IMG/VR virus record: IMGVR_UViG_3300046512_000236
Coordinates: 1 to 36,691 of that record
DNA from: a virus
Strand: one strand, 5' to 3'
Length of the DNA: 36,691 nt
Shown piece after piece: positions 2,626 to 33,047 of the stretch; position 1 is the stretch's first letter; each line of letters begins with the position of its first letter. The notes beneath the pieces are model-generated. The model did not search any database and was not told the DNA's origin. It saw only the letters and a list, made by a program, of their open reading frames with translations. The position numbers were made by a program, and so were the translations under genes.

Positions 2626-5388
2626 TTAGTTCTCGTTCGGTTGATCGGTGCGGACGCCGACAGAGAGGCCAAATTGGGCCAGGGCATCGAGGGAGAACGC
2701 GCTCAGGTGGCGGATGCGGCGGGATAGGATCGTGCGCTCGATTTCCCCGCCGTGGTCGACCAGGACGCCCGCGTGTTCCAGCTGGCGCTTAAATACGCCG
2801 GCCGTCTTGACAGGGAGCGCGTTCCATTTCTCGCGCAGGGCGTTGGACGTGGAAATGTGGTCGATGATGTGAGCGGGCCGGATGAGCAGCTGCACGTCCT
2901 CGCCGACACGCTCGAACCGGAACGGATGCTTGAAGTTGCCCGCGTCGATTTCCGACAGCGCGGTTTCCATGATCCAGACCCACGGGGCGCGGTCGCTGCT
3001 CGTTTCCTTGATGTGGCTGTTCATTTCGGCGAGCAGGTCGCGGCCGAGGTTGCCTTCGCCTGGGTGCATGCCGGCGAACTCGGCCAGGTAGCGCCAGGCG
3101 AGCAGCATCGCCGCGTAGTTGCCGGCCATGCGTTTGGCGCCGTCATCGTCGGGCGGGGCCATGCTGTTGTCGAGGCAGTGGTCGCGCAGCTCGCGATATT
3201 TTTCCAGGACCGCCAGCCGATCGAGGCCAGCCAGGAATTCGAGCCATTGACGCACGGGGAAGCGTGGCAGGTCGTCGGGGATCATCGGCCCTTTCTTCGC
3301 CAATCGGGTGCGCACCAGCTTGCCGAGCAGGCTACGCGCGGGCACGTCCTCGCCGGCGAGCAGTACGGGCGCCGACAGCAGGTACTCGGTCATTTCGGAT
3401 CCACGCTTGGTGACCGTGTACTGGTAGTTCTCTTGCAGCAGGCCGATCGCCTTGTCGATGATCTTTTGATCGCGGGCGCTGATTTCTTCCCATCCGATCG
3501 GGTGGCTGGTGTGGCTGATACTGGTCAGCATGCGGAACTCTGTTTGCAGGCTTTGACCGGACAGCATGGTGAAAGCGATCGTGCGTTCCAGGCGCTTGAT
3601 AAGCGTCGATTTGCCGGCGCCCTTGTCGGCCTGCAACATCATGTGCGGCCAGAACCCGAGGATGGCTTTCAGGTGGCCGCCCAACGCCCATACGAGGGCC
3701 ATAGCGGCCGCGCTGTGGCCGAACGTCTCCTGGTATGCGGAAATGACGCGGCGGGCGTCAGCGACAGGGCCAGAGGGGAACGTGAGGTTGCTGTAGGGGC
3801 ACTGCTTTTCGGCGTCGGTAAAGAAGCAGTCCGGGCCTTCGTTCACGGCGAGCTGGCCTTCGCGCCAGGCCAGGCCGACAAAGTTCGCGGCATTGCGGGC
3901 GCCCAGGTGCGCGGTGCGCTCCAGGATGTTGAGCATTCGCGAGAATTGGGCCGGTTGCCAGATGGGGCCGAACTTGTTCCATTGCTGCATGTTGTGGAGC
4001 TGGTCATCGAGCAGCACGCGGCGGGTCAGCTTCGCTCCGTGGCGGGGCGTTTGGACCGTTACAGCGAAGTAATCGACCGGCGCCTGGTCAGGGTCGCCGG
4101 TCATCGTTGCGGCGGCGCTGGCGACCGATACGCGGCTCAGGGAGGCAACGCGGAAGCCGGCGAGGTCGGAGTAGACCGGAGTCTCGTCGCTTTCATCGCC
4201 CTTGCGTTCCATCTTTGCGATGTAGCTCGTGAAGTCCAGGCGCGAGCGGAACCGCCAGTACTGCGCGAAATCATGGTCGGGCAGTGGCACGCGTGAGCGG
4301 CCGCCCCTGCGGCTTTCCTTCGTGCCGCCCATGCCTGCGATGAGCCACGGCTCGTATGTTTCCAGGGCCTTGCGCAGCTCGTCGGCGCTAGTCGCCGTCA
4401 GGTAGTCGTTGACATCGTTAATCGAGGCCTTGTCGGCATCGAGCCAGTCGGTTTGATCGACCATGATCGCGCCGATGTTCAGGGCGGTCAGGCGCTCGTA
4501 GAGAATCCACGCGGCCTCGGGGCCGGGGCGCTGATAGGCCTTGTGGTGCCCAGGCGGGAACGCGTCGTCGTTGTCCATGCAAATGACGGCTTGCTTGCCA
4601 CGCAGGAAAGAAAGGTCGAGCTGCGCCGCGTTGCCGATGCCGCGAATAGACACGGCCGCCGTGCGGTACATGTTGCAGCTGTCGATCGACAGGGCATTGA
4701 TCGAGCTTTCGACCAGGTACACACGTTCGGCGCTGGCGAGCTTGCGCGGGTCGGCGGTCCAATAAATCCCCTCTTTCTCGCCGTGCGTCTGCGTCTTCAC
4801 GTCGCCATTGATGGCGGGGTCCAGGAACCGCATGTCGACGGCGACGACCTGGCCGAAAGCGTTGCGCACGATGAAGGCCGCGGCGTCGCCGCCATAGCCC
4901 ACGTCGCCGCTTTTTTTCTTGTCGCTTTTCCAGTCGTTAAAGCCCAGGGTGCGGGCCTTGATAGCGGCGGTGATGGCGCTCTCGGAAATGCCACGGCCTT
5001 GCAGGTATTCGCGGGCACGCTCGGCTTCGCGGATGCACTTGTCGGCGATGTACTCGACCTGGCTCTTTTGCTTCGGCGCTTCCTGTTGTTGCGGACGGTC
5101 GAGAGGGATCGCGTACGCATCGTGGAGCCAGCGCATCGCGTCGGCCTTCGTGCCGCCTTGCACGAGCATGACCAGGTCGATGTGGTCGCCGCCGCAGTCG
5201 CCGCTGTGGTCCTTCCAGCCGGTACCGTACCGTGCGTGGTTGACGTAGATCGAGAGCGACGGATTCTTGTCGGGGTGCAGCGGGGAGTGGTACAGCGCGT
5301 CGTCGCCGCCCTTGCCCCGCTTGATGCCAAGCCTTGCCGCCAGTTCATGCAGGTCAATTTGGCGTTTCAGTTCTTGGATTGAAGCCAT
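2626..5388 (-). CDS. Primase-helicase: degenerate CHC2 zinc finger, TOPRIM, P-loop ATPase
   Basis: A 920-aa replication protein. Residues 12-75 match a DnaG-type CHC2 finger (HSPLHPDKNPSLSI... CGGDHIDLV), but the first Cys position is Ser and the second Cys pair is mostly lost, leaving H34, H38, H61 and C65 as possible ligands. TOPRIM elements follow at about 225-275 (YLVESSINAL; VICMDNDD). A Walker A motif (ADKGAGKSTL) lies near residue 590, inside a C-terminal helicase-like ATPase half. The layout recalls P4 alpha-type and ICE/plasmid primase-helicases. P2 itself has no such protein and relies on gpA plus host factors. It probably primes and unwinds during plasmid or lytic replication. The start at 5388 has only a weak GAG element upstream. 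Confidence 0.88.
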   Translation of the reverse strand: MASIQELKRQIDLHELAARLGIKRGKGGDDALYHSPLHPDKNPSLSIYVNHARYGTGWKDHSGDCGGDHIDLVMLVQGGTKADAMRWLHDAYAIPLDRPQQQEAPKQKSQVEYIADKCIREAERAREYLQGRGISESAITAAIKARTLGFNDWKSDKKKSGDVGYGGDAAAFIVRNAFGQVVAVDMRFLDPAINGDVKTQTHGEKEGIYWTADPRKLASAERVYLVESSINALSIDSCNMYRTAAVSIRGIGNAAQLDLSFLRGKQAVICMDNDDAFPPGHHKAYQRPGPEAAWILYERLTALNIGAIMVDQTDWLDADKASINDVNDYLTATSADELRKALETYEPWLIAGMGGTKESRRGGRSRVPLPDHDFAQYWRFRSRLDFTSYIAKMERKGDESDETPVYSDLAGFRVASLSRVSVASAAATMTGDPDQAPVDYFAVTVQTPRHGAKLTRRVLLDDQLHNMQQWNKFGPIWQPAQFSRMLNILERTAHLGARNAANFVGLAWREGQLAVNEGPDCFFTDAEKQCPYSNLTFPSGPVADARRVISAYQETFGHSAAAMALVWALGGHLKAILGFWPHMMLQADKGAGKSTLIKRLERTIAFTMLSGQSLQTEFRMLTSISHTSHPIGWEEISARDQKIIDKAIGLLQENYQYTVTKRGSEMTEYLLSAPVLLAGEDVPARSLLGKLVRTRLAKKGPMIPDDLPRFPVRQWLEFLAGLDRLAVLEKYRELRDHCLDNSMAPPDDDGAKRMAGNYAAMLLAWRYLAEFAGMHPGEGNLGRDLLAEMNSHIKETSSDRAPWVWIMETALSEIDAGNFKHPFRFERVGEDVQLLIRPAHIIDHISTSNALREKWNALPVKTAGVFKRQLEHAGVLVDHGGEIERTILSRRIRHLSAFSLDALAQFGLSVGVRTDQPNEN

Positions 5389-6437: not shown

Positions 6438-7091
6438 ATGGACCAGAATCAAGCCCTTGTTCGCGATATCGTTGACAGAATGAAAAGCGTAGTGGGCGTA
6501 TCGAAAGATGTTGATCTGGCCGACCATCTCGGCGGGGCGCGCAGTTCGCTTTCGGTATGGAAAAAGCGAGGCAGCATCCCGCTTGACGAGTGCATGCGTA
6601 TTGCGACAGAGCAAAACGTCAGCCTCGATTGGTTGATCCTCGGGAGAGGGGAACCGGAACTGTTATCTGCGCCGCGCGATGCGAGCCGCGACGCGCTGTT
6701 TGTCGACTTGCCGCTGTTCGATATGGGCACGGAAACAACAGACCCGGTGCAGGAGGCGTGGTGGACGATGCCGCGCTCCTGGTTGTTGCAGGAGGGGTTG
6801 CCGGTAGAGGATGCGGCGATTTTGCGCGTGGCCGGCGATGGGCACGCGGGCGGCATCGAGGACGGTCAGATGGTGCTAATTGACCGTCGACACCGCCCGA
6901 ACGATGGCGTGTACCTGGTGCGATTCGGCGGGGCGCTGCGCATCAAGCGCGTGCAGCATAGGGTCGACAGCTCGCTGTTGTTGACCTCGGACAACGACGC
7001 CTACGAGCGCGACCAGGTGAACGGCGACGTGGCCGCCGCCGACTTTGAAATCATCGGGTATTGCTACGCCGCCTTTCGCCGCGTCCGCTGA
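6438..7091 (+). CDS. CI-type prophage repressor with an apparently inactive S24 peptidase domain
   Basis: A 217-aa repressor. Residues 5-72 match the Phage_CI_repr helix-turn-helix type (VDLADHLGGARSSLSVWKKR... VSLDWLILGRGEPE). Residues 85-215 match the LexA/CI S24 fold (ILRVAGDG... IEDGQMVLID... GVYLVRFGGALRIKRV). S24 peptidases carry the nucleophile in a GDSM context. Here residues 133-136 read GDGH, so the Ser is Gly135, while the general-base Lys (K170) is kept. The linker shows no Ala-Gly or Cys-Gly cleavage site. RecA-stimulated self-cleavage is therefore unlikely, so an antirepressor or another trigger may be needed. The gene diverges from the early operon and its last 28 bp overlap the converging recombinase gene. 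Confidence 0.88.
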   Translation: MDQNQALVRDIVDRMKSVVGVSKDVDLADHLGGARSSLSVWKKRGSIPLDECMRIATEQNVSLDWLILGRGEPELLSAPRDASRDALFVDLPLFDMGTETTDPVQEAWWTMPRSWLLQEGLPVEDAAILRVAGDGHAGGIEDGQMVLIDRRHRPNDGVYLVRFGGALRIKRVQHRVDSSLLLTSDNDAYERDQVNGDVAAADFEIIGYCYAAFRRVR

Positions 7092-7723
7092 CCTGGTGCA
7101 ACGGCCTTCTTTTTCGCGGCTCTTTGCAGTGAGTTGTAGAGCGTCGCGCGGCTGACCCCGTATCGAGCTGCAACGCTCGTAACGGTGATGTCAGGATCGT
7201 TAGAGGCGAGCAGGGCCTCGACCTCGCGCAATGCGCGGTCATCGAGCTTCGGAGGCCTGCCGCCCATCCTTCCCCGAGCACGCGCCGCCTTGAGGCCTGC
7301 GGCCGTGTTCTCCGCGATGATTTCCCGCTGGAATTGCGCGAGCGACGCCATGACGCCCAGGAACAACCGACCCTGCGGCGTAGTGGTGTCGATGCGCTCG
7401 TTCAAACTTTCGAACCCAATTCTGCGAGCGTCCAGCTCGGCGACGATGCGCACCAGGTCGGCCAGCGAACGGCCGAGCCGGTCGAGGCGCCACACGACCA
7501 GAGTGTCGCCGGCGCGCAGGGCACGCAGCACGTTTGCCAGCTCGGGGCGCGCGGCCGCGCTCTTTCCGCTCTGCTTCTCCTGGTAGAACTGAACGCACCC
7601 CGCGCTGCGCAGGGCGTCGAGCTGCATGTCGAGGTTCTGGTCGGCCGTGGATACGCGGGCATAGCCAATGCGTATGCCGCCGCTGACGATATCGCGCGTT
7701 GCACGGTCTGCGGGGTCACGCAT
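7064..7723 (-). CDS. Serine recombinase, resolvase/invertase family (probable multimer resolvase)
   Basis: A 219-aa protein. The resolvase catalytic domain begins at about residue 17 (IRIGYARVSTADQNLDMQL) with nucleophile Ser25 and the conserved arginine motif WRLDRLGRS. The hinge and C-terminal helix-turn-helix are intact (TVTSVAARYGVSRATLYNSL). The length is normal for the Tn3-resolvase/Hin group. On a plasmid prophage the likely task is resolving multimers so that partition works. No inverted segment is seen at the tail-fibre gene, arguing against a host-range invertase. The ATG at 7723 overlaps the upstream stop by 8 nt; a longer open frame upstream is out-of-frame readthrough. The 3' end overlaps the repressor gene tail to tail. 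Confidence 0.9.
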   Translation of the reverse strand: MRDPADRATRDIVSGGIRIGYARVSTADQNLDMQLDALRSAGCVQFYQEKQSGKSAAARPELANVLRALRAGDTLVVWRLDRLGRSLADLVRIVAELDARRIGFESLNERIDTTTPQGRLFLGVMASLAQFQREIIAENTAAGLKAARARGRMGGRPPKLDDRALREVEALLASNDPDITVTSVAARYGVSRATLYNSLQRAAKKKAVAPGQRTRRKAA

Positions 7724-8108
7724 GGTGGCCTCTGTGGTTCCCCGCCTGAATGGAGCGCATTGCCGCGACGCCGACGATGGCGCGTCGACGAGCTGCGGCC
7801 GCGTCATGCCGGATCGTTTCCACGCAGAGCATGTCGTCCAGGCGGACAGCGATGTATGTTGGGAATTCTTCGACGACAGCGCCGAGGGAAACGGCCAGGC
7901 GATCGGCGTCAGCATCCTGTTCGAGAGGCGCCCATTCGCGCCATATGCCGTCGCCATGCTTGCGCGTCCAGTGGTTGGGGGTTCTGTCGGGGTAGTCGGA
8001 CATAACCGCGCCAGCGGCCTTTGCCGCAAGGCGCAGTAGCTCGGCATCCCCCTCGTACCCCTTGCCGGCGCGGCGGCCGACGCCCCGAATGACCAGGTCG
8101 TTAATCAT
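7716..8108 (-). CDS. Phage-type hypothetical protein (DUF2591-like pattern)
   Basis: A 130-aa protein overlapping both neighbours by 8 nt. The centre (GIWREWAPLEQDADADRLAVSLG) resembles the recurring W.PL.D..DAlrLav pattern of small accessory proteins found near the right arm of many temperate phages, some filed as DUF2591. That comparison is from memory. The function is unknown. The start at 8108 is fixed by the ATGATTAA overlap with the upstream stop. Confidence 0.65.
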   Translation of the reverse strand: MINDLVIRGVGRRAGKGYEGDAELLRLAAKAAGAVMSDYPDRTPNHWTRKHGDGIWREWAPLEQDADADRLAVSLGAVVEEFPTYIAVRLDDMLCVETIRHDAAAARRRAIVGVAAMRSIQAGNHRGHHA

Positions 8109-27020: not shown

Positions 27021-28028
27021 TTACACCAGGGTGATGTTTTCAGCCACGGCGCCGGCGCCGAAGTCCTCGACCACGTACGCGTCGTTGGCCGACTCGTAGT
27101 TCTCGATCCGGTCGCGCTTCGGGTTGTCCGTCACGGTGCGGCGGCGGCTACCCTCCTGCGTGTAGATCGAGAGGTTCTTCAGCGGCGTGACAAACACCTT
27201 GCCGGCCGGGAAGAACGGAACCCGCACGGCAGGCAGGCCGCCCACGCGCTTCTGGCTGATGACGATGTCGGCGGCCAGCGTTTCGGTCGGCGCCTGCGTC
27301 TGGTTGACCAGCGGGAAGTACTTGTCGTCCAGCAGCTCACGGCCCACCACGGCGACCAGGTCGGTGCGCTCCTGGTGCCATGGGTCGACCATCTGGTTGA
27401 CCAGGTCGACGACCAGGGCGTCGATGTTCTTGTACTTCTCGCCCGCGCCGATCTTGATGAGGTTCGAGCCGGCTGCGACCTCATGCATGACGCGCTCGGG
27501 GGCCTGCTCGCGGTAGTGCTGGAGCCAGCCCTTGTTCACGTCTTGCAGCAGCGGGTTAGCGGCCTTGTTCGACGTGGCGGCGCGGCTGGTGCCGTTGAAA
27601 CCGCACATGATCCGGTCCAGCGCCTGGCGAACGATGAACGCGTCGCGCAGGAACGTCTCGAACTCCGGGTGGCGCGCCCAGGCGTCCAGGCGGGCATACG
27701 GCACATGCGAGTCCCAATTCGTTTGCTCGCAACGGTACTTGTTGCTATCGAGCGCCGAAATGTCGGTCGTTTGGCGATCCTGGGCGGCCGTGTTCGTGGT
27801 GCCTGCGATCGGACCCGTGGCGCCCACGCCGATCTTTTCGCCCTCCTGGTCGAGAACCAGGATCATGTTGATGGTCTTGAGGAACTCGCTGGTTTCCTGC
27901 ATCCGCCTTTCGAGCGTCTGTTGCACGGACGGCGCAACAGCAAACTTCTCGGTGGCGTCAGCGATCGCGTTCAGTTTCGCGATGCGTTCCAGGTAGGCGC
28001 GATACAGCACGCGGGTTTCGTTACGCAT
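27021..28028 (-). CDS. N: Major capsid protein GpN
   Basis: A 335-aa protein of the P2 GpN family (MRNETRVLYRAYLERIAKLN... FLKTINMILVLDQEGEKIGVG). P2 N is 357 aa. It forms the T=7 shell after N-terminal trimming by the GpO protease. Good ribosome-binding site GGAGAAA 6 nt upstream of the ATG. The 55-bp gap to O contains no other element. Confidence 0.95.
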   Translation of the reverse strand: MRNETRVLYRAYLERIAKLNAIADATEKFAVAPSVQQTLERRMQETSEFLKTINMILVLDQEGEKIGVGATGPIAGTTNTAAQDRQTTDISALDSNKYRCEQTNWDSHVPYARLDAWARHPEFETFLRDAFIVRQALDRIMCGFNGTSRAATSNKAANPLLQDVNKGWLQHYREQAPERVMHEVAAGSNLIKIGAGEKYKNIDALVVDLVNQMVDPWHQERTDLVAVVGRELLDDKYFPLVNQTQAPTETLAADIVISQKRVGGLPAVRVPFFPAGKVFVTPLKNLSIYTQEGSRRRTVTDNPKRDRIENYESANDAYVVEDFGAGAVAENITLV

Positions 28029-28083: not shown

Positions 28084-29088
28084 TCAGCAATCGGTCTGCA
28101 CGCTGTTGGATTGGCCGGTGACGTGCGGGCGTGCCGGGTCGGCTTGGGTGTTCGACAGCTTCGTTTGCAGGGCGGCGAAGTCGGTCGACGTCTTGTCGTG
28201 CGCGGCCTTCAGCTCGGCGTAGTCCGCTTGCGCCTTCGCCAGGTCGGCCGACAGCTTCGCGACCGTTTCGGACTGTTCTTTGCCGTGCGTCGCCAGCAGC
28301 TCGATCGCCTTGTTGAGGTCGGTGAAGCGTTCGGCGTCGTTCGCGTCCTTTTTGCCCAGGATAGTGGCGACGGTCGAAAACACCTTCTTGACCTGGTCGG
28401 CCACGGTGACCGTCGGTTCTTCCAGCTCGAACGAGGTTTCAATCGCGGCGGTGAACAGGTTGCTCGTGTTACGGGCCGAGAAATGCAGTGCGTCGGTTCC
28501 CAGGCTTGCCGGGGAATCGGTCACGGCCAGGCCGATCAGATAGGCTTGCTTGGTGTCCGCGAACGAGGTATTCACTTCGGCGCTCGTGTAGATTTTCTGG
28601 CGGTCCTTGTTCATCGCGACCAGGGCCGGCGTGGGTGAAATCTGCGCGAACAGCTTCATCTTGCCGCCGACTTCCTCGGCCTTGAGCGCCAGCACGTCGC
28701 CGTAGGCCTTGAAGGGGCCATCGGGCACGATGCCCTTGATGTGTTCCATGTTGACGCGCGCGCCGTACATCTGCGGGTTGTAGTTGGCGGCCATCTGCTC
28801 GATCCATGCGCGCGAGATTGTGCGGCCGTCGACCGTTGCGCCTTCGGTGGCGATCGCAAACCATTTCGTGGTCGCGTACTTTTCGACATGGGTTGCGACG
28901 GTCGAGCCAGCCATACCCAGGGCGCCGGCAGCGGCGAGCGCCTTCGTTACGCCTTCAGCCGTGAAGTCGGGAAGCAGCGTTGCGAAGCCGCCCGCGACAT
29001 GAGCTGCGGCGGCGTGCGCGTCGATTGCGAACATCGCCGCAGCAGCGATGCCGATCATCGGCAGGATTCGGAAGAAAGTGCGTTTCAT
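28084..29088 (-). CDS. O: Capsid scaffold and maturation protease GpO with unusual N-terminal extension
   Basis: A 334-aa protein. From residue 75 on it is a normal GpO: TEGATVDGRTISRAWIEQMA, MYGARVNMEHIKG, KIYTSAEV, then a scaffold coiled coil (TVAKLSADLAKAQADYAEL). The P2 catalytic residues D19, H48 and S107 correspond to D87, H116 and S169, so about 68 residues are added in front. The extension begins MKRTFFRILPMIGIAAAAMF and continues AIDAHAAAA, a textbook-looking signal peptide, then has a helix rich in Ala/Gly. TTGGAG 8 nt before the ATG at 29088 supports this start. An internal Met59 (28914) would give a conventional protein but lacks a Shine-Dalgarno. P2 O is 284 aa. Confidence 0.9.
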   Translation of the reverse strand: MKRTFFRILPMIGIAAAAMFAIDAHAAAAHVAGGFATLLPDFTAEGVTKALAAAGALGMAGSTVATHVEKYATTKWFAIATEGATVDGRTISRAWIEQMAANYNPQMYGARVNMEHIKGIVPDGPFKAYGDVLALKAEEVGGKMKLFAQISPTPALVAMNKDRQKIYTSAEVNTSFADTKQAYLIGLAVTDSPASLGTDALHFSARNTSNLFTAAIETSFELEEPTVTVADQVKKVFSTVATILGKKDANDAERFTDLNKAIELLATHGKEQSETVAKLSADLAKAQADYAELKAAHDKTSTDFAALQTKLSNTQADPARPHVTGQSNSVQTDC

Positions 29089-29166
29089 CTGTCAGGCTCC
29101 AAGCGGGTGCGGTGGTGGTGTTTGCGGTAGTGGTGTAGCGGTGTGTCCATGTTGGGCATTCGCGCG

Positions 29167-29207
29167 ATGTCCATCAATCATCGCGACATGTGGTGGCTTT
29201 CGTGACA
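29167..29207. promoter_or_regulatory. O/P divergent late promoter region with two dyads
   Basis: Between divergent O and P lie ATGTC-N13-GACAT (29167-29189) and, adjoining it, TGTGGTGGCTTTCGTGACA (29189-29207; TGT-N13-ACA). The second shares ATGTGGTGGC with the dyad upstream of V. These are candidate Ogr sites. The second is centred 110 bp from the O start and 58 bp from the P start. No -35 is visible, as expected for activator-dependent promoters. Confidence 0.5.
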
Positions 29208-29255
29208 GTCGATTACGCGTGCGTCGCGCGTGCGCGAGGCAATACGCTTGTCGGC

Positions 29256-31070
29256 ATGCTCGACCCATTCGCCCCTGATACGGCGCAGGCCTCGCAAACG
29301 ACTTGCCCCCTGCCGCCCTACCCGCCTACCTCTCTCGACACAGACCCGAGGAAGGCGGCGCGCGCCCTTTACTGGCAGGGGTGGCGCGTGTCCAGCATTG
29401 CGCGGCATCTCGACCTGAAACGCGGCACGGTCAATTCTTGGAGAGAACGCGACAAGTGGGACGAGGCCTCGGCAATCGACAAGGTCAACAGCGCGTTGGA
29501 AATCCGGCTTATTGCGCTCATTGCGAAAGAAAAGAAGGACGGCGCCGACTTCAAAGAAATTGACCTATTGGGGCGCCAGCTTGAACGCACGGCGCGCGTC
29601 ACCAAGTACGGCGAAACGGGGAAAGAGAGCGACCTGAATCCGAACATCGCCGCGCGCAACGCTGGCCCCAAGCGCAAGCCAGAGCGCAACACGATCAGCG
29701 ACGACCAGGCGAAGAAAATCCGGGAAGCGTTCCTCGATTGCCTGTTCGACTATCAAAAGGTCTGGTATCGCAACCGGGAGCAGCGCACGCGCATGGTTCT
29801 CAAGTCGCGGCAGATTGGCGCCACGTTCTATTTCGCTCGCGAGGCGCTGGTGGACGCGATCGAAACGGGCCACAACAAGATTTTTCTGTCTGCAAGCCGT
29901 TCGCAGGCCTTCATCTTCCGCAACTACATCAAGAAATTCGCGAAAGAGGCGGCAGACGTCGAGCTTGAGGGCGATCCGATCATCTTGCCCAATGGCTCGG
30001 AGCTGCGATTCCTCGGCACGAACTCGGCCACGGCACAGGGCTACCACGGCGACTTCTACTTCGACGAGTTTTTTTGGGTGCCGAAGTTCAAAGAGCTGAA
30101 CAAGCTCGCGTCGGCCATGGCAATGCACAAGCATTGGCGCAAGACGTATTTTTCGACGCCGTCGAGCATGTCGCACGAAGCCTACGCAATGTGGACCGGG
30201 AAGGACGGCCGCAAGCGCAAGAAAGACGAGGGGTTCAGCCTCGACCTTTCGCACAATGCGCTGGCCGGCGGCCTGGTGTGCGCGGATCGCAAGTGGCGCC
30301 AGATTGTGACCGTGGAGGATGCAGTAGCGGGCGGGTGCGATCTGTTCGACCTCGACGAGCTGCTCGACGAGTATTCGGAGGCCGATTACGCCAATCTGCT
30401 CATGTGTCAGTTCATCGACGACACGGCGAGCGTGTTCAAGTTTTCGGACCTGCAAGCGTGCATGGTCGATTCGTGGGTTGAGTGGGCGGCCGACTACAAG
30501 CCGTTCGCGCTGCGCCCGTTCGGCCACAAGCGGGTATGGGTCGGGTACGACCCGGCATTGACCGGCGACTCGGCCGGGTGCGTAGTGCTCGCGCCGCCGG
30601 CCGTGCCTGGCGGCAAGTTCCGCGTGCTTGAGAAACATCAGTGGCGCGGCCTCGACTTCGAGGCCCAGGCCGAGAGCATTCGCAAGATTACGCAGCGATT
30701 CAACGTCGAGTACATCGGAATCGACACCACAGGCCTGGGGGCCGCCGTGCACCAGCTCGTGAGCAAGTTCTTTCCCCAGGCCCAGGCGATCAACTACTCG
30801 CCCGAGGTTAAAAGCCGCCTGGTGCTCAAAGGCATTTCGGTTGTCAGCAAGGGCCGGCTTGAATTCGACGCGGGATGGGTCGACTTCGCGCAATCGTTCC
30901 TGGCCATCCGCAAAACGATTACCGGCAGCGGCCGGCATGTCACGTATGTGGCCGCGAGAAATGAAGAGATCGGGCACGCCGACCTGGCGTGGGCGTGCCT
31001 GCACGCACTTGGCAATGAGCCGCTAGAGGGTATGACTACCCTCAATGGCGGATTTATGGAGTTTTCCTGA
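29256..31070 (+). CDS. P: Terminase large subunit GpP (ATPase)
   Basis: A 604-aa packaging ATPase (P2 P is 590 aa). The N-terminal HTH-like element (ALYWQGWRVSSIARHLDLKRGTVNSW, key span) is typical. Walker A-like SRQIGAT lies near residue 187, Walker B FYFDEFFW near 268, and the nuclease-side acidic motifs YDPALTGDSAG and GIDTTGLG further on. The ATG at 29256 was chosen because homologues start shortly before the DPRKAARALYW segment. The frame also opens with a GTG at 29190, but that lies in the regulatory dyad. Confidence 0.94.
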   Translation: MLDPFAPDTAQASQTTCPLPPYPPTSLDTDPRKAARALYWQGWRVSSIARHLDLKRGTVNSWRERDKWDEASAIDKVNSALEIRLIALIAKEKKDGADFKEIDLLGRQLERTARVTKYGETGKESDLNPNIAARNAGPKRKPERNTISDDQAKKIREAFLDCLFDYQKVWYRNREQRTRMVLKSRQIGATFYFAREALVDAIETGHNKIFLSASRSQAFIFRNYIKKFAKEAADVELEGDPIILPNGSELRFLGTNSATAQGYHGDFYFDEFFWVPKFKELNKLASAMAMHKHWRKTYFSTPSSMSHEAYAMWTGKDGRKRKKDEGFSLDLSHNALAGGLVCADRKWRQIVTVEDAVAGGCDLFDLDELLDEYSEADYANLLMCQFIDDTASVFKFSDLQACMVDSWVEWAADYKPFALRPFGHKRVWVGYDPALTGDSAGCVVLAPPAVPGGKFRVLEKHQWRGLDFEAQAESIRKITQRFNVEYIGIDTTGLGAAVHQLVSKFFPQAQAINYSPEVKSRLVLKGISVVSKGRLEFDAGWVDFAQSFLAIRKTITGSGRHVTYVAARNEEIGHADLAWACLHALGNEPLEGMTTLNGGFMEFS

Positions 31071-32113
31071 TGAGCAAGAACAAGCGCCGCACGCCGCCGG
31101 CCGCCCCCGTGGCGCCCATGGTGTCGACCGAGAGCAAAGCCGAGGTTTTCTCCTTCGGCGAGCCTACGGCCGTGTTGGACCGCGCCGGCATCCTCGATTA
31201 CGTCGAGGCCTGGCAGAACGGCAAGTACTACGAGCCGCCGGTCAGCTTCGACGGCCTGGCGAAGACATTCCGCGCCGGTAGTCATCATTCGTCGGCGATC
31301 TATTTCAAGCGCAACGTCCTGGTGTCGACGTTCATCCCGCACAAGCTCCTGTCGCGGGAGACATTCGGCAAGTGGGCGATCGACTTTCTGACGTTCGGCA
31401 ACGGCTATCTAGAGCGCATCAGGAATCCGCTCGGCGGGACGATCCGGTTCGACGCGCCCTTGGCAAAGTACATCCGCCGCAGCTGCACAGACCTTGCCGC
31501 GTACTTCCAGCTGCGCGGCGGGTGGAAAGACCCGTTCGAATTCGAGCCTGGCCGGATCTTTCATTTGATGGAACCGGACATCAACCAGGAGGTGTACGGC
31601 CTGCCCGAGTACGTGGGCGCGTTGCATGCGGCCTGGCTGAATGAATCGGCGACGCTGTTCCGCCGGCGCTATTACGAGAACGGGAGCCATGCCGGCTTCA
31701 TTCTCTACATGACGGACCCCGCCAACAGCGAGGCCGATGTCGACGCGCTGCGCGAGGCGATGAAGAAAAGCAAGGGGCCGGGGAATTTCCGCAATCTGTT
31801 CGTGTATGCGCCCAATGGCAAGAAAGACGGCATGCAGCTCATCCCGGTTTCGGAGGTAGCAGCCAAGGACGAGTTTTTCAACATCAAGAACGTGACGCGC
31901 GACGACCTGCTCGCGGCGCATCGCGTGCCCCCTTCCCTCCTGGGCATCGTGCCCGCGCATGCCGGTGGATTCGGGTCGCCTGAAACGGCGTCTTCGGTGT
32001 ATGGCCGCAACGAGGTTAAGCCGTTGCAAGACAAGTTCCTGGCGTTGAACGAGTGGGCCGGGGAGCAAATCGTTCAGTTCGATCCGTATGTGCTCCCTTC
32101 GGTGTCAGACTAA
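31070..32113 (+). CDS. Q: Portal protein GpQ
   Basis: A 347-aa protein of the P2 GpQ / PBSX portal family (P2 Q is 344 aa): FSFGEPTAVLDRAGILDYVE, HSSAIYFKRNVLVSTFIPH, FLTFGNGYLERIRN, and the C-terminal LLAAHRVPPSLLGIVP. It forms the dodecameric DNA gate at one capsid vertex. It overlaps P by one base (TGATG). Its last codons form part of the left arm of a long inverted repeat whose right arm lies beyond the rep gene stop. Confidence 0.95.
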   Translation: MSKNKRRTPPAAPVAPMVSTESKAEVFSFGEPTAVLDRAGILDYVEAWQNGKYYEPPVSFDGLAKTFRAGSHHSSAIYFKRNVLVSTFIPHKLLSRETFGKWAIDFLTFGNGYLERIRNPLGGTIRFDAPLAKYIRRSCTDLAAYFQLRGGWKDPFEFEPGRIFHLMEPDINQEVYGLPEYVGALHAAWLNESATLFRRRYYENGSHAGFILYMTDPANSEADVDALREAMKKSKGPGNFRNLFVYAPNGKKDGMQLIPVSEVAAKDEFFNIKNVTRDDLLAAHRVPPSLLGIVPAHAGGFGSPETASSVYGRNEVKPLQDKFLALNEWAGEQIVQFDPYVLPSVSD

Positions 32114-32252: not shown

Positions 32253-33008
32253 TCAGAAGAGGTCGCTTTGTGGGTTCTGGCGGAACTTGAAGTCGAGGCC
32301 GACAACCTTGCGGCCCTGCGTGACCGTTTCCCACTCGATCAGAAGTCCGTTCTTCTCGATCAGCTCGGCCACGGCCGGCTCGATGACACGCTTGCGCAGC
32401 TCTTTGAAGTTGCTCCGCTGGCTATCCTTCGCATCCATGGCACGGTGGAAGTCCCCGATCGAGGGGCTATAGCGCCCCGTAGCGGCCCAGGATTTCAGGC
32501 ACTCATAAAGCCGCCAGGAGTAGGCAGAGCGGAGCGCGGCCGTTTGCTTGAGCTTGTAGGACGTGAATTCTTTCCGTAGGCCGAACAGGTGTGGCACGAC
32601 CTCATGCCACCAGTGCAGCTCGACCCACCCTTCCCCCTTGTGGTACTTCACACTGCCCACCCACCGGAACTGGCATTCTTCCGGCCCCTTGGGCGTCGAC
32701 CTGGTGGTTCGGATATATCGGTTGAACAGGCTCTTGCTTGCCTGTTGTAGCTGCTCGTATGCGGCGTCGAGGCCGATCGCAAATGTCTCGGCGTACTCCA
32801 TCGCACTAAGGCGCACTGTCCAGGCGCCTTTGCGATGAATCTCGGCCATCTTTACGGAATCGTTTTTGGCAATGCAGGAGGCGATCAGGCGCTTCTCGGC
32901 AAGGCCGAGGCCGTGAGCGGCGCGGGTTAGCGCGTTGCTCATGTTGACGTTGCGCTCGACGAGCTGCGCGTCCTGGTCGATTGTGGTTGCTGCGCGCGGT
33001 GCGTTCAT
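32253..33008 (-). CDS. rep: Plasmid replication initiator, Rep_3 (RepB/RepE-like) family
   Basis: A 251-aa initiator with the two winged-helix layout of Rep_3 proteins: VERNVNMSNALTRAAHGLGLAEKRLIASCI at the N-terminus (key span), IRTTRSTPKGPEECQFRWVGSVKYH in the middle, KLKQTAALRSAYSWRLYECLKSW and the C-terminal FKELRKRVIEPAVAEL. Such proteins bind iterons as monomers to open the origin and bind an inverted half-iteron operator as dimers to repress themselves; both element types lie upstream. The ATG at 33008 has AGGGG 10 nt upstream; the frame also extends to 33047, inside the operator. This protein takes the place of the P2 gpA rolling-circle replication gene, absent here. Confidence 0.93.
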   Translation of the reverse strand: MNAPRAATTIDQDAQLVERNVNMSNALTRAAHGLGLAEKRLIASCIAKNDSVKMAEIHRKGAWTVRLSAMEYAETFAIGLDAAYEQLQQASKSLFNRYIRTTRSTPKGPEECQFRWVGSVKYHKGEGWVELHWWHEVVPHLFGLRKEFTSYKLKQTAALRSAYSWRLYECLKSWAATGRYSPSIGDFHRAMDAKDSQRSNFKELRKRVIEPAVAELIEKNGLLIEWETVTQGRKVVGLDFKFRQNPQSDLF

Positions 33009-33047
33009 TGGAGCATGACCCCTGTTATTGGTGTGCCGCAAGATCAT

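Follow-up and report, generated by a model that had tools for sequence, protein, structure and literature searches.

The heads of tailed phages are generally treated as cytoplasmic assemblies; T4 is the standing exception, and its membrane step is poorly understood. Procoat of the M13 type consists of a signal peptide, a short loop, a membrane segment and a basic tail, and is associated with YidC. In T4, proheads are initiated on the inner membrane and cross-links to YidC have been obtained (PMC9958956). The T4 gp20/gp40 initiator thus resembles what is proposed below in its site of prohead assembly and in the involvement of YidC; however, the attached protein is the portal and not a scaffold or coat protein, and the passage on it in that article describes no signal-peptide leader. 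The P2 scaffold and protease gpO, for which domain limits have been published (PMC7552001), starts 19 residues before its catalytic Asp (D19) and has no leader.

Among the closest known counterparts of the gene studied here are those of Kisquattuordecimvirus. GpO of phages KS14 (gp34, 345 aa), FLC5 and FLC10 has a long start in the deposited annotation, a signal-like segment that ends in ANA/A or AHA/A (the slash marks the predicted cut) and the same Shine-Dalgarno sequence, but what follows the cut has clearly diverged from that of the gene studied here; KS5, AP3 and Carl1 are annotated with a short start. In the KS14 genome paper, gp34 is listed in a table, at 345 aa and with its ribosome-binding site, and a text search of the paper turned up no mention of a gp34 leader (PMC3091744). 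A literature search, in which few subscription journals were covered, found no description of a scaffold leader.

The DNA analysed here (the window, 36,691 nucleotides) encodes a GpO of 334 aa on the minus strand (28084-29088). Its residues 74-334 match the whole Pfam profile Phage_GPO (PF05929, profile positions 1-268) with E 2.5e-92 and 309.7 bits against a cut-off of 33.6, and a PHROG search matches it to PHROG 73, head scaffolding protein. In an alignment with P2 gpO, taken from the P2 genome record, D19/H48/S107 fall on D87/H116/S169 (codons 28828-28830, 28741-28743 and 28582-28584, minus strand), and the extension therefore comprises exactly 68 residues; the Asp-His-Ser triad is invariant in alignment A3. 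As in P2, a protease domain is joined to a scaffold domain. The first (residues 74-203; 28480..28869, minus) is delimited by PF05929, the P2 alignment and an AF2 model, in which pLDDT is mostly 64-95; the linker and C-terminal helical domain (residues 204-334 plus stop; 28084..28479, minus) are placed by alignment and by AF2, with a long helix at 251-313 and a conserved DC end. A PDB fold search with the AF2 model found nothing below E 0.019. The neighbouring head genes Q, P, N, M and L are also those of P2. They include the major capsid protein gpN, which has no leader (27021..28028, minus; PHROG 70, E 3.9e-151), the terminase large subunit gpP (29190..31070, plus; PHROG 3746 from residue 47, the true start probably lying downstream of the ORF start) and the portal protein gpQ (31070..32113, plus; PHROG 68). 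An initial sequence-only reading had described a good Shine-Dalgarno sequence and a 68-residue, Sec-signal-like extension that puts the Asp at residue 87, where GpO usually starts about 19 residues before it. Its coordinates and description are right, and the comparison it proposed with GpO of Burkholderia-type phages found the leader in KS14, FLC5 and FLC10.

Architecture and translation of the GpO leader

Residues 1-26 of the leader (MKRTFFRILPMIGIAAAAMFAIDAHA; 29011..29088, minus) form a signal-peptide-like segment with a predicted cut AHA/A at 26/27, before A27. This assignment is based on an explicit rule with controls, on the architecture of relatives and on dN/dS. The rule asks for an n-region of net positive charge, 10 uncharged residues with a mean hydropathy of at least 1.9, and AXA at residues 15-36; the controls were short GpO, genes P, N, M, L and X from the same loci (any start preceded by a Shine-Dalgarno sequence being allowed) and shuffled extensions. 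The signal-peptide check advised by the sequence-only reading, run in this form, separates the classes: the pattern occurs in 59 of 60 distinct long GpO and in 4.5% of shuffled extensions, and in none of 28 short GpO or of 746 copies of the control genes (for gpN, a signal-peptide start in 0/160 copies). Across long GpO the cut motif is kept as AHA, ANA, ADA or AQA/S while the remaining leader diverges; the signal segment of Paraburkholderia unamae differs over its whole length (MKRIRIVSAGALGAAIIAAITPALAQA/S), and the segment behind it is kept. The extension is thus signal-peptide-like by sequence and may undergo export and cleavage by signal peptidase I.

After the predicted cut come about 47 Ala/Gly-rich residues (27-73; 28870..29010, minus), arranged as a procoat-like loop and a weak second hydrophobic stretch. 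The latter, residues 50-64 (ALAAAGALGMAGSTV; 28897..28941, minus), is a candidate membrane segment with a Kyte-Doolittle 15-mer value of 1.45. Over the GpO set, the hydrophobicity of this stretch is not above that of shuffles of the same region, and a Hessa-type sum is about +3.7 over 17 residues. The loop between the signal segment and the second stretch has a median length of 21 residues and a net charge of -1.20 in GpO, and the flank after the second stretch a net charge of +1.36; in leader-bearing capsid proteins (see below), the loop has a median of 14 residues and a charge of -0.71, and the flank -0.07. In the AF2 model the leader appears as low-confidence helices, with a pLDDT mostly below 50 and no confident fold. 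A close relationship to a known protein was considered and rejected: a tblastn search of phages and plasmids with the first 77 aa found nothing, and the PHROG matches were weak.

A scan of viral contigs for relatives of GpO yielded 80 loci, many of which carry the same kind of extension in frame, for example MFKRKLSLLAIAVGSMASLFAIDAHA/AATTVGAGIQHADVLGG... In 59 long-form relatives, as in the window (GGAG at 29097..29100, minus, 8 nt before the long ATG; cttGGAGcctgacagATG), a Shine-Dalgarno sequence precedes the long start, and in most of them it is GGAG with the same spacing of 8 nt; where other lineages have short forms, it usually precedes the short start. Met59 (28914), from which translation might start if the long start had been wrongly assigned, has no Shine-Dalgarno sequence upstream (ccgctgccggcgccctgggtATG) and is not conserved, and none of 59 long-form genes has a start codon with a Shine-Dalgarno sequence within the 45 codons before the catalytic motif. 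Nei-Gojobori dN/dS, calculated by divergence class, is 0.25-0.35 in the signal segment and 0.20-0.48 in the post-signal segment, 0.12-0.26 in the protease and 0.35-0.52 in the C-terminal part of GpO, in whose range the leader falls. By these values purifying selection acts on the leader as coding sequence; the start, the Shine-Dalgarno sequence and the selection together show, at the level of sequence, that the gene is built to make the leader as part of GpO. The sequence-only reading had mentioned a misassigned start, and had named two refuting conditions: translation from Met59, or an extension that relatives carry as a non-translated leader. The evidence against Met59 and the translation of the extension in relatives, under purifying selection, remove both, and a misassigned start is therefore excluded for practical purposes.

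Two further observations concern the coding of the leader. In close pairs (window 28870-29088 and relatives), pS is 0.09 in the signal segment against 0.17-0.23 in the rest of the gene, perhaps because of a codon or RNA constraint near the start. A separate small gene, fused to GpO only by chance, was also considered and rejected: no standalone copy was found in 95 short-form loci or elsewhere in the window, nor among the strong genome matches of the leader profile.

Leaders of HK97-type major capsid proteins

About 1,100 genomes in all were scanned with leader profiles. Among 398 Burkholderiaceae genomes, the GpO-leader profile gave 16 matches below 1e-9, of which 14 are GpO genes, L184 and L186 being decayed copies, and the other two (L188 and L189) are not GpO. 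In both of the latter, the leader (MMKRNYLGTFCAVAGALMASMLTIDAHA/ATTVVSSVLNHADILGALSDHG...) is followed by a coiled-coil-like segment and then by a major capsid protein of the HK97 type (E 2.6e-60 and 4.5e-63 for Pfam Phage_capsid). In order to exclude matches that rest on signal-peptide likeness, an HMM of the post-signal segment only was built from GpO alone. It matched three HK97-type capsid proteins, L201 (E 1.1e-9), L283 (E 3.7e-6) and L206 (E 1.1e-5); the scores of about 4,000 shuffled targets all stayed below 10 bits. Judged by this profile, the post-signal segment is homologous between GpO and these three proteins.

A second profile, made from the leaders of GpO and capsid proteins, was run on 399 genomes of the order and gave three matches below 1e-9: one GpO and the HK97-type capsid proteins L360 and L362, which were named as such by reading their sequence, without a profile search. 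At class level the sole match below 1e-9 was the same GpO; L366, the other class-level match listed (E 2.5e-5), matches in the signal part only. Weaker matches that were inspected, from 3.5e-5 upward, are ordinary secreted proteins. Every match below 1e-9 in the roughly 1,100 genomes is thus a capsid-assembly protein, either GpO or an HK97-type capsid protein. These comparisons show the leader to be portable, a homologous leader heading an unrelated HK97-type major capsid protein. The sequence-only reading had also named a gene fusion, and this idea fits, because the leader is a transferable module that also occurs on HK97-type capsid proteins. For the specialist, the unexpected points are that an unrelated capsid protein has this leader in common with GpO and that strong matches are confined to capsid-assembly proteins.

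A signal-like or hydrophobic leader is found in a subset of these capsid proteins (L188, L189, L201, L206, L283, L204, L290, L360 and L362); however, the proteins are unrelated to GpO and many members of their family have no leader. Relatives of L188 and L189 in IMG/VR carry several kinds of leader, or none. One kind combines a signal-like segment with H[AP]D and a hydrophobic stretch (L204, L227, L290, L346), and a second signal-like type occurs in L223, L228 and L237. Two strong, hairpin-like N-terminal hydrophobic segments are present in L230, L232, L236, L240, L242, L244, L245 and L246 (capsid gene near 3001), where they are kept over several contigs with a dN/dS of 0.20; for capsid-protein leaders overall, dN/dS is 0.20-0.43. 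On a tree of the capsid proteins, the hydrophobic leader is scattered, with 19 changes in 63 rows, no better than shuffled; these counts of gain and loss are rough because some relatives scored as having none (e.g., L205, L207, L216, L225) are probably wrong start calls. Another family of capsid leaders, with a motif of the GRYMR or YM.R.G kind in place of the signal-like segment, is seen in L208-L211, L220, L259, L285, L316, L331, L337 and L338.

Two cultured phages, Nostoc phage Nsp-JY10 and Mesorhizobium phage vB_MseS-P1, have their own versions of a leader on the capsid protein. In the database record of vB_MseS-P1, the capsid gene is labelled as a virion protein. Mass spectrometry of its virions is reported to have identified 15 virion proteins, 11 of which correspond to proteins of the RcGTA head-tail cluster (g3-9, g11-13, and g15), g5 being the gene for the major capsid protein (PMC11409702). 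Virions can therefore be made with a leader of this type. With respect to annotation, signal-peptide predictors may mark leader-bearing capsid proteins as secreted, and gene callers may cut such genes back to the usual start.

A possible membrane role and its alternatives

The presence of this leader on both GpO and an unrelated coat protein suggests that in some phages head assembly is directed to the cell membrane. We give an even chance to the view that the 68 residues, a translated, conserved and transferable scaffold leader, take the scaffold to the inner membrane, where head assembly would start. More tentatively, and at somewhat less than even, the leader may anchor both P2-type gpO and the HK97-type coat protein in the inner membrane by a signal-peptide hairpin, the scaffold itself being the anchor, which would make procapsid assembly a membrane process in these unrelated tailed phages. 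Membrane targeting, cleavage and function of the leader are what we infer here; a literature search found no experiment on its localisation or cleavage.

The likeliest route, by analogy, would be a procoat-like insertion. The signal-like segment would bring the nascent scaffold to the inner membrane, and the scaffold would insert there, through YidC or SecYEG, as a hairpin made of the signal segment, the short loop and the weak second membrane segment, while the protease and scaffold domains would stay in the cytoplasm. Signal peptidase may then remove residues 1-26. The order of elements and the loop length in GpO and capsid leaders resemble those of M13-type procoat, but the second segment of GpO is much less hydrophobic; the likeness is one of arrangement. 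The charge pattern in GpO (loop -1.2, after the second stretch +1.4) would agree with an N-out/C-in topology. The second segment of GpO may not stop translocation, because it is weakly hydrophobic and not above shuffles. Head assembly would begin at the membrane, as T4 proheads do via gp20, and the prohead would come free once the scaffold is cut by the maturation protease or the shell is completed by copies that are not anchored. Because scaffold is enclosed by the shell, no more than the initiating copies could stay anchored in the membrane. If this is true, head assembly linked to the membrane would be a strategy that recurs, given a conserved export-type leader on two unrelated scaffold systems, and the leader, AHA, YidC and signal peptidase would be simple genetic handles on why a phage wants its heads at the membrane.

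Once the readings as a misassigned start or an untranslated region fall, the membrane reading, which the sequence-only reading had raised as a possible tether of procapsids, is better supported than the others, and is held with roughly equal belief and doubt. Its most serious competitor, which we consider unlikely, is that the leader never meets a membrane: its hydrophobic helices would pack in the middle of the procapsid, aid self-association of the scaffold and later be removed by the phage protease. P2 gpO is indeed an internal scaffold that is cut at maturation (PMC7552001), the second segment is weak, and the AF2 helices at 11-35 and 44-56 have no fixed position. In capsid proteins of the HK97 type, the N-terminal scaffold segment also lies inside the shell and is removed. 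However, packing leaves unexplained why a basic n-region and AXA stand at one place in 59 of 60 proteins, and also the charge pattern of loop and flank.

The leader could alternatively be a membrane-active peptide retained in the virion as part of an N-terminal fragment, ejected with the DNA and helping it to cross the inner membrane. P2 keeps gpO 1-141 in its head as O*, and the leader is contiguous with this protease fragment. This is improbable: HK97-type phages remove and degrade the N-terminal segment, tape-measure proteins are considered to supply a channel, and cleavage at the AXA site would split the helix from the rest. A selfish or neutral fusion, in which scaffold genes picked up a spare stretch coding for a signal peptide and tolerate it although it has no role, would agree with the patchy presence of the leader and its variable post-segment; purifying selection on GpO and capsid-protein leaders and the restriction of strong matches to capsid-assembly proteins make it more improbable still. 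Export of part of the GpO pool for a task in the periplasm separate from head assembly (e.g., as a lysis or exclusion factor) could account for a signal-like segment followed by a weak stop segment, but is very hard to reconcile with a major capsid protein that has the same leader and no evident periplasmic role, or with a window that encodes its own holins and endolysin. Least credible of all is translation from Met59 behind an untranslated leader, which would give a P2-like N-terminus but is contradicted by the position of the Shine-Dalgarno sequence, by the lack of a conserved internal start and by the protein-level conservation of the leader over many relatives.

Distribution of the long form and phage-plasmid context

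Among prophage loci in genome contigs, the leader is present in 14 of 80, which belong to Paraburkholderia, Caballeronia and strains that are filed under Burkholderia; the loci of Pseudomonas, Gilliamella, Collimonas, Variovorax and others have short GpO. GpO above the Pfam cut-off was found in 57 of the 398 Burkholderiaceae genomes. The view of the sequence-only reading that a membrane-directed scaffold would be unusual is only half right: in one set of P2-like phages of Burkholderiaceae, the leader is common (12 of these 57 genomes).

In a quick tree of 133 GpO cores, the leader label needs five changes, at least four of them forced by well-supported branches, and the window GpO is placed apart from the main leader-bearing clade. 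Independent gains of the leader in GpO are not claimed, because the AU test does not reject a tree in which all long forms make up one clade (p 0.43). The decayed GpO copies L184 and L186 have kept the leader and lost much of the gene. In L135 (near 5001), GpO is fused in frame after the protease domain to a sequence resembling a late tail gene, apparently the remnant of a prophage deletion that still keeps the leader.

The window also encodes a Rep_3 plasmid replication initiator adjoining the portal gene and a serine recombinase (Resolvase), at 32253-33047 and 7064-8047, both on the minus strand. In KS14, a plasmid prophage, the Rep initiator likewise adjoins the portal (PMC3091744). By its gene content, the window is probably a P2-like phage-plasmid. 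A Rep_3 gene lies near the head genes in 11 of 57 long loci versus 0 of 75 short ones. A link between the leader and a plasmid lifestyle was considered and rejected; since most long forms have no Rep_3 and several lie in contigs much longer than a phage, the association probably reflects clade structure and not cause.
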